Assembly (NCBI RefSeq): GCF_030867145.1
Contig: NC_134441.1
Span: 8,726,992-8,790,991 of the forward strand
Reading direction: 5' to 3'
Length of the DNA: 64,000 bases
Source: Opisthocomus hoazin
Lineage: Eukaryota > Chordata > Aves > Opisthocomiformes > Opisthocomidae
The first letter of the stretch is position 1. Each line of letters begins with the position of its first letter. The translations under genes and the position numbers were made by a program. Below the pieces are notes generated by a model. It had not been told where the DNA came from. It ran no database searches and saw only the letters and a list, made by a program, of their open reading frames with translations. Shown one piece after another: positions 31,299-33,523 of this stretch.

Positions 31299-33523
31299 CG
31301 TCCTGCAGACGGCCCGAGCATCCTCGCTGAACTTGTCTGAGCAGGGCTCCTGCTCCTCCCGCACCCGCTTCTCCACCTCCTCCCGCTTCACCCGCTCCTT
31401 GCGGGTGCTGAAGGGCGACCGCCCCGCCATCATCTCGTACACCAGGCAGCCCAGCCCCCACCCGTCAGCGGCCGGGCACGCCACGGCACGGGGACCCCCG
31501 GCCGGCCCGCCCGCTGCAGCCCCCACGCTCACCCATGCAGCCGATGCGCCCGCGGATGGTCTCGCCCTCAGGGACCTTGATCGCCAGCCCCAGGTCGGAG
31601 ATCCTGATGTGGCCTGGGGCAGGGAGCGCGTTGAGGGCAGCACCCCCGGGAAGGTGCCCTACATGGTGGGCAGCACCCCCGGGAAGGGCTACCCCCCATC
31701 CCTGCCCACCCTGCCCGAAACACAGCCAGAGACCCATCCCCAAAGCCCAGAGCCTGGGCAGAGCCAGCCCCAGCAGCCCCCTCCTCACCGTCGCCATCCA
31801 GCAGGATGTTCTCCGGCTTCAGGTCCCTGCGGGGACAGACAGACGGACAGCTCGGCACGGAGCCGCCCCGCTGCCCGCCCCGCTCACCGGTAGACGATGC
31901 CCTCCTGGTGCAGGTGCTGGAGCCCGCAGCAGATCTCGGCCGCGTAGAAGACCACGTGCTCGTCCTCGAAGCCCGGGTCGCCCACGTTGTAGATGTGGAA
32001 CTCGAGGTCGCCGCCGTTCGTGATGGTCAGCACCCGGCAGAGCGCGTCCTTCGTCTCGTAGGTGTACGCCAGGCTCACCTGCGCGCCCGCCCCGGACCCC
32101 CCTGCTCCCCGGCCCCCCAGGAGAGCACCACACGCGCCACGAACCGGCTGTTGACCTTCTCCAGGATCTGCTTCTCGTTCAGGGCCATCGCCTCCCCTTT
32201 CCGCTTCTTGATCCGCTGCTTCTCCAGCTTCTTGCAGGCGTACATCTTCCCCGTGGCTCGCACCTGGCAGGCACACACCTTGGGGGGGGCACTGGTGGGG
32301 TGAGCCCCCCCAGCCCACCATCACCCCCCTGTCTCACCCTCACGGCCGTACCTCTCCGAAACCGCCCTTGCCCAGGATCCGGTACTGCCGACACGTGTCC
32401 TCAGTGACCGACTGCCTGCGACACGCAGCCCCGAGCACGTCAGCCCCACGGACCCCCCCCGCACACCTCGGAACCCCCAGGTCCCCCGCTCACCTCTCCA
32501 GGTGCTTCCACTGCAGGAACAAGTCGAAATACACGCTGTGGTGGTCGGCGGCGAAGGGGTCCCCGCTCAGGTACTGGTGCGGGGGGCTGCGGGGGCAGAG
32601 GGGCCGGTCGGCGTCGCCCGCAGCCCCCCAGGGCAGGACACTGACCGCAGGCAGCTGCTGAAGGGGTCCTTGCAGGGGCTCCTCCGCAGGTCCCGCAGGC
32701 ACCGGCTGGCGTGGGGCGGGCCCACCTCGGGCAGGAAATCTGGGGACTGCCGAGGGGAGCGGAGGGGTGCGCACCCACGCCCCCCGTGTGCCCCTCCCGC
32801 GTCCCACCTGGGAGCCGCCTGGGCCATGGGTGCCACCGGCACGGCCAGAGAGCGGGGACACAGCTCCGTGGCCAGCGAGGGACCCCCGCAGTGCCCCTGC
32901 TCCCGTCCCATCCCCACCCCACCCGCCCTGGGTGCCCGGGGTCCGGGGGAAGCCCCCCAGGACTCACCTCCTGCTTCAGGAACCGGCGGATGATCTCCCC
33001 CCCGTCTCCTTCCGCTTCTCCTCCGGGGAGAGCTCGTAGTCCGCCTGGGGTGCCCGGGGAGCGGAGGGTGCTGCAGACAGCGGCTCCGGGCACAGCTCTG
33101 CCCCGAGCCCCCCGCCGAGCCCCCCGGACTGCCCCGGCCGCGGGGTGCTGGAGCCGTCGGCACCCCACCACGGGCAGCCGCCTGCGCCGGGGCTCAGGGG
33201 GTGGGGGCAGCCCCCGGGGTCCCCCACGCTGCTCCCGGCGGCGGGCAGGGCAGCGGGCTGCGAGCCCCGCACAGCGCCAGCCACGCGGGACGGGGCAAAG
33301 CGACGTCCCGCAAGAGCCCCAGAGCCGGCGCGGCAGAGGCCGCTCTGCGGGCACGCGTTTCCCACCGGCAGCCCCCCGGGTGCGGGGCTCTGCCCGCCCG
33401 AGGGGCTCCGGCTGCTCCCCCCGAGCAGCCCCGCAAAGCCCACCCCGCGCGGAGGGTGCCCGCGGGGGGGAGGGGGAGGTCTCGGGGGGCCGCGGTACCG
33501 GCCACGATGTTCTCCAGCTCCAT
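31299..33523 (-). pseudogene. GRK4/5/6-type receptor kinase, partial and probably decaying
   Basis: Pieces of a GPCR kinase of the GRK4 subfamily lie in order on the minus strand: 33499-33523 (MELENIVA), 32968-33044 (ELSPEEKRKETGG), 32646-32746, 32494-32586 (FLQWKHLER), 32352-32415 (RILGKGGFGE), 32138-32278 ([18 protein letters not shown]), 31888-32078 ([13 protein letters not shown]), 31789-31826 ([11 protein letters not shown]), 31533-31613 ([16 protein letters not shown]) and about 31299-31466 (WGLGCLVYEMMAGRSPF). Splice phases agree through the kinase N-lobe and catalytic loop. Lost are most of the N-terminal RGS-homology exons, the start of the YMAPEV exon and the whole C-terminus. One exon has a 1-base deletion in a G run. 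It is nearest to GRK4/5/6 but I cannot assign it to one. It could be a genuine relic or a poorly assembled gene. Confidence 0.8.

Follow-up and report, generated by a model that had tools for sequence, protein, structure and literature searches.

An inactivated GRK4/5/6-type kinase gene beside FGFR1 in Opisthocomus hoazin, very probably the fourth copy from the two vertebrate genome duplications

GRKs set the duration of hormone and neurotransmitter receptor signalling. A preliminary description of the DNA around STAR in the bird Opisthocomus hoazin reported a row of kinase exons between STAR and LSM1 and proposed that they are the missing relative of GRK4, GRK5 and GRK6, which sit near FGFR3, FGFR2 and FGFR4; two whole-genome duplications (2R) predict a further copy near FGFR1. 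Is there a fourth GRK4/5/6 gene at this locus, how old is its split from the other three, and does it still encode a kinase? A fourth 2R copy, if true, would complete the FGFR-linked quartet and put the 2R model to an independent test, and the mammalian kinase set might then not cover receptor regulation in non-mammals. We conclude that the locus is very probably the fourth 2R copy of the GRK4/5/6 gene of vertebrates, namely the member of the FGFR1 region, present in this bird as an inactivated remnant.

The gene remnant between STAR and LSM1

The window, the whole stretch of DNA analyzed here, comprises 64,000 nucleotides of contig C28 (C28:8726992-8790991) in a genome of 1.48 Gb and 415 contigs. 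STAR (minus strand) is located at approximately 25.4–28.0 kb of the window and LSM1 (minus strand) at 35.0–37.0 kb, and between them lie ten exon pieces of a GRK4/5/6-type remnant, running from 33523 to 31300 on the minus strand. Past LSM1, Pfam domains identify a BAG-domain gene (BAG4) and then a DDHD-domain gene (DDHD2). An exon at 61.6 kb, for which the Pfam search gave no match, is presumably PLPP5-like. FGFR1 is found further along this contig, approximately 96 kb past exon 1 of the remnant and beyond the end of the window. The GRK4-subfamily exons of the preliminary description were confirmed, their motifs following one another as expected on the minus strand. Its bounds (31299..33523) agree to about one base with the positions of the start codon and of the exon 12 donor; the minus strand and the broken state of the gene were absent from it. 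Upstream of STAR, at 11090-11371 (minus strand), the window also contains an exon for the C-terminus of a ligand of the TGF-beta family (Pfam TGF_beta, 46 bits), the nearest solved chains of which are of the activin/BMP type. The location of this exon suggests the NODAL-type gene that birds keep beside EIF4EBP1.

Exon numbers follow the GRK4/5/6 gene, and the remnant has exons 1 and 4–12, all on the minus strand. Exon 1 (33499..33523) contains the start codon and MELENIVA, the N-terminal receptor-docking segment, followed by an intact GT donor whose position was assigned by family comparison. Exon 4 (32968..33044) belongs to the RH/RGS-like domain and reads ADYELSPEEKRKETG and EIIRRFLKQE, two halves that lie in different frames as the result of a one-base frame break in a run of seven G; it was compared with the bird's own GRK6 and human GRK4/5/6. 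The RH domain continues in exon 5 (32646..32746; 39% to human GRK6 over 33 residues) and ends in exon 6 (32494..32586). Exon 7 (32352..32415) contains ...RQYRILGKGGFGE and the glycine loop (GKGGFGE), and exon 8 (32138..32278) comprises the kinase N-lobe with the catalytic lysine region. The donor of exon 8 is GC, compared to GT in all three of the bird's own paralogues, and an in-frame GT is present three bases upstream. Exon 9 (31888..32078) ends with ...IVYR and exon 10 (31789..31826) holds the catalytic loop, the motif of which is readable only when both exons are joined.

Exon 11 (31533..31613) contains SDLGLA and lacks three residues that are present in GRK4/5/6, leaving an activation loop shorter by that number. 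Just 72 bases (31461..31532) lie between it and the part of exon 12 that can still be read, in place of intron 11 and the 5' end of exon 12 (YM/APEV...SPD); the APE motif is deleted, and a reading frame continued beyond exon 11 runs into a stop. The surviving part of exon 12 (31300..31460) runs from WGLGCLVYEMM... to ...DARAVCRT and has an intact GT donor. A reading of this exon as lacking a donor was rejected, since in the paralogues it extends three bases further, to the GT that is intact here. When joined, exons 5–11 form an open frame of 236 residues with no stop. The introns of the remnant measure 59–221 bases where measured, compared to several hundred to thousands for the same introns in the bird's GRK5 and GRK4; they underwent strong compaction before or during decay.

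No trace of exons 13 onward was found in the interval in which they are expected on the STAR side (27972..31299, minus strand), and exons 2–3 were not found in the 454 bases that separate exon 1 from exon 4. Both results were obtained with tblastn (word size 2) on the window and with a GRK profile on 190 six-frame segments from about 27–36 kb. In the bird's own genome, a GRK5 N-terminal probe gave 8 matches and a GRK5 C-terminal probe 12 among the best candidates, none of them on C28, in a search where one GRK4 exon reached only 30 bits and where the N-terminal probe missed exons 1 and 4 of the window itself, such that equally short or changed exons escape detection. The assignable matches correspond to the bird's GRK4, GRK5, GRK6 and GRK7-like genes; three weak matches of the C-terminal probe are located on C15, C21 and C2.

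Family membership and age of the split

The translated exons 5–11 were compared with GRKs of solved structure. This yielded 383 bits for GRK5, 379 for GRK6 and 365 for GRK4 (E-values 5e-114 to 1.2e-108), with 254 bits for GRK1 (1.4e-74) and at most 168 for GRK2 (1.9e-48). These E-values exclude a chance match, and the remnant is nearer to GRK4/5/6 than to GRK1/7 or GRK2/3. The boundaries of exons 6–12 agree in position and phase with those of the bird's GRK4, GRK5 and GRK6 where compared. A joined-exon search of the same genome identified four further genes, named by comparison with human and bovine proteins: GRK5 on C6, GRK6 on C22, GRK4 on C5 and a GRK7-like gene on C4. As GRK4, GRK5 and GRK6 are all present in this bird, the remnant is a fourth gene.

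Over exons 6–12, the remnant is identical to the bird's own GRK4, GRK5 and GRK6 at 178/242, 171/226 and 188/254 positions, respectively (counted without exon 6 for GRK5 and without exon 10 for GRK4), and is therefore approximately equidistant from the three (74–76% in shared exons). Similar values were obtained with human GRK4, GRK5 and GRK6 (180/254, 185/254 and 185/254), and the human-bird pairs of the three genes are identical at 220/258 (GRK4), 238/242 (GRK5) and 256/270 (GRK6) positions. With GRK4, GRK5 and GRK6 the remnant has in common the MELENIVA start, the layout of RH and kinase domains, the kinase motifs, the compared intron positions and the linkage to FGFR; it differs in that it falls outside all three in the tree, is broken, and has a C-terminal half that was not found. 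The visual GRKs, GRK1 and GRK7, have the RH-kinase layout as well, but their identity to the remnant is far lower (136/253 for bovine GRK1 and 114/195 for the bird's GRK7-like protein).

The age of the split was addressed with trees of human, bovine and hoazin sequences only. The main set covers exons 4–12 (328 columns with gaps; own exon 4 from GRK6 alone, own exon 5 from GRK4 and GRK6 alone) and was used to compare 33 topologies under LG+G4 with the AU test. All 18 topologies that nest the remnant inside a bird or human member of GRK4/5/6 were rejected (highest p 0.027, for bird GRK4). Of those with the remnant outside the three pairs, 12/15 were not rejected and 3 were. In addition, the remnant has few of the states private to GRK4 (2/19), GRK5 (2/19) or GRK6 (6/28). 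The rejected nesting and the few private states together indicate that the remnant split off before the divergence of birds and mammals. In the maximum-likelihood tree its long branch joins the GRK1/7 outgroup with weak support (80.9/46), and as far as these sequences reach, the tree gives neither a branching order among the four copies nor the one of GRK4, GRK5 and GRK6 that is closest to the remnant.

The preliminary description named nesting within bird GRK4, GRK5 or GRK6 as the outcome that would mark the locus as a recent duplicate or retro-insertion, and the remnant turned out to be separate from all three. Such an origin is scarcely credible. It draws on the smaller data set of exons 6–12, in which the single bird-GRK4 topology was not rejected (p 0.12) and the 17 others of the 18 nested topologies were; with more exons every one of them was rejected with p below 0.05, the introns are at the positions of the family, and the distances to GRK4, GRK5 and GRK6 are about equal.

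The FGFR neighborhoods and the origin of the fourth copy

A probe for the FGFR1 kinase gave six-piece matches on C28, C6, C5 and C22 and nowhere else among the best candidates. Each of these contigs contains one GRK4/5/6-type gene, at a distance from FGFR of about 0.10 Mb (C28), 0.91 Mb (C6), 1.42 Mb (C5) and 0.15 Mb (C22). Neighboring families were located by their domains, with 9 matches for TACC_C at three loci (a single one on each of C28, C6 and C5), 6 matches for BAG on C28 and C6 plus one locus on C7, and 15 matches for DDHD on C28, C6, C7, C13 and C20. The gene organization on C28 is GRK (8.76 Mb), BAG (8.77), DDHD (8.78), FGFR (8.86) and TACC (8.96), and that on C6 is GRK (74.00 Mb), BAG (74.13), DDHD (74.24), FGFR (74.93) and TACC (75.34). 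Thus, both contigs share one order of the five families, and 4/5 of these also agree in orientation, with the remnant inverted relative to GRK5. From the human gene order, we presume the C6 neighbors to be BAG3, SEC23IP, FGFR2 and TACC2.

A fourth gene, older than the bird-mammal divergence and now broken by lesions, is found in a neighborhood that is conserved four-fold. It is the FGFR1 member of the paralogon and branches outside GRK4, GRK5 and GRK6, as a fourth 2R ohnologue would. It is very unlikely that a stray copy, landing at random in a genome of 1.48 Gb, would end up 0.1 Mb or less from FGFR1. The remnant could in principle derive from an old small-scale duplication of a GRK4/5/6 gene near the base of the vertebrates, outside 2R, and have come to lie beside FGFR1 later. 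The tree is compatible with this, as it dates the split only as earlier than that of birds and mammals and leaves its order relative to GRK4, GRK5 and GRK6 open. We nevertheless consider this very improbable, since the same order of five families on C28 and C6 and the presence of a GRK at each FGFR locus are predicted by 2R and would otherwise have to be coincidence. The tree rejections, the four FGFR-GRK loci and the conserved order are strong evidence for the missing 2R copy, as the preliminary description had proposed, and we infer from them an origin in 2R itself.

The same description held that humans have no GRK at this locus, which agrees with a published table of human 8p11.23 that, in the part available, gives STAR (38,142,700-38,150,992) and LSM1 (38,163,335-38,176,730) on chromosome 8 with no gene, and hence no GRK, between them (PMC7598661). 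On the reading proposed there, the gene would have been kept, at least in part, in birds or their recent ancestors and lost in mammals. For this bird, the word "kept" needs correction, as its copy is an inactive remnant with several disabling lesions.

Loss of function, its timing and related systems

The ancestral protein would, judging from its family, have docked on an active G-protein-coupled receptor through its MELENIVA N-terminal helix, with the RH domain bracing the kinase; the kinase would have phosphorylated the receptor tail, to which arrestin then binds. In the remnant the RH domain is incomplete (exons 2–3 not found, exon 4 frame-broken). The kinase domain retains the glycine loop, the catalytic loop and DLG, and lacks the APE motif and the end of the C-lobe. 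In neither the window nor C28 was the C-terminal amphipathic helix detected. As assembled, the sequence cannot encode a working kinase: in addition to the truncated, frame-broken RH domain and the lost APE segment, the searches recovered neither the remainder of the C-lobe nor the AGC tail or the membrane-binding C-terminus. In addition, 23/181 positions that are invariant in GRK4/5/6 are changed, 10 of these among the 104 that are common to GRK1/7; when each paralogue is counted in this way, with the window copy taken among the reference sequences, 9–16 positions of 175–191 are changed. These disabling lesions affect the sole copy at the ancestral place, as in a unitary pseudogene, and the remnant is inactive in this bird, the lesions being read from a single assembly.

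Could the gene instead be intact and working, with the missing exons and the frame break reflecting assembly errors? The region invites such errors, with a [G + C] content of 70–78% across 31–34 kb, the frame break is a single base within a G run, and the readable codons contain no stop. On the other hand, there is no N anywhere in the window, the missing exons were not seen elsewhere in the assembly within the sensitivity of the probe searches, and the deletion at the junction of exons 11 and 12, the three lost loop residues and the many changed invariant positions are not simple base errors. We therefore regard an intact gene as improbable. Less credence still is due to a remnant that is transcribed, yielding a short kinase-dead protein of RH domain and N-lobe or a regulatory RNA. 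Exon 1 persists with its donor, exons 5–11 are open and the observed/expected ratio of CpG is 0.79 over 33.4–34.5 kb, but high CpG is a regional feature (0.60–0.82 in the other stretches computed), exons 2–3 were not found, exon 4 is out of frame, and the read-through from exon 11 is terminated.

The remnant has a dN of 0.15–0.17 to the bird's own paralogues, while synonymous sites are saturated or nearly so, a pattern indicative of purifying selection during most of the time that the gene has existed. The use of synonymous divergence as a clock failed, the values (pS 0.53–1.05 to the own paralogues, with third-position GC of 0.38–0.94) being near saturation or blurred by base composition. The absence of stops in the 312 readable codons (exon 4 read in two frames) suggests that the gene has probably been dead for a short evolutionary time. 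It bounds the neutral time since the first lesion at less than about 0.11 substitutions per site (95%), assuming neutrality from that lesion and a kappa of 4; partial selection would loosen this bound. At an avian neutral rate that we assume to be about 2e-9 per year, this corresponds at most to a time in the tens of millions of years, which fits a loss within bird evolution as far as one genome can tell. The loss has been caught late enough for the remnant to be still readable and roughly datable.

No description of a fourth GRK4/5/6 gene, or of a GRK beside FGFR1, STAR, LSM1 or BAG4, was found among the papers listed from the open PMC literature, within the text it makes available; other birds or reptiles may have an unnamed gene prediction outside the papers searched. 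Mammals are credited with a set of three, GRK4, GRK5 and GRK6, in the accessible portion of Lamb et al. (2018) (PMC5795056). The nearest lead in the literature is fish GRK5C of zebrafish and pufferfish, which the available text of Mushegian et al. (2012) (PMC3307776) describes, in addition to GRK4, GRK5 and GRK6, as fast-evolving. Like the remnant, GRK5C is a divergent extra GRK4/5/6-type gene on a branch of its own; its authors ascribe it to the teleost duplication of GRK5. GRK5C could be the same fourth copy.

Kazald4 is likewise a fourth 2R copy of its family, present in birds and others and without a formal report according to its authors; it differs in belonging to another family and in being intact and expressed in the bird brain (PMC12955574, as excerpted). 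The GC-rich and gene-dense setting of the remnant resembles that of "elusive" genes (PMC10208646, in the portion available), and repeated loss would be a further likeness if the losses in mammals and in this bird were independent; the genes on that list are human ones, however, and human has no listed copy at the locus of the remnant. A scan of viral contigs gave 7 pattern matches and no relative. We see balanced chances for the wider proposal that a fourth GRK4/5/6-type kinase belonged to the jawed-vertebrate toolkit, survives undamaged today in certain birds, reptiles, amphibians or fish (perhaps as teleost GRK5C), and was lost independently in mammals and in this bird from a GC-rich, loss-prone region.

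Other multicopy sequences were observed in this genome. Many near-identical pieces of a kinase domain (profile positions 43–160) are present on C24, C28 (0.18–0.36 Mb), C34, C35, C125, C152, C194, C320, C345 and others; they are often spaced by approximately 14.4 kb and resemble tandem repeats of a unit with a kinase gene in it. At C9:41.56–41.61 Mb, at least five near-identical single-exon kinase genes are arranged in tandem. Large arrays of feather keratin genes are located at C3:1.25–1.69 Mb, C26:7.49–8.24 Mb and C30:3.10–3.15 Mb, with up to 94% identity to an approximate probe sequence among the best 150 of 327 candidates.
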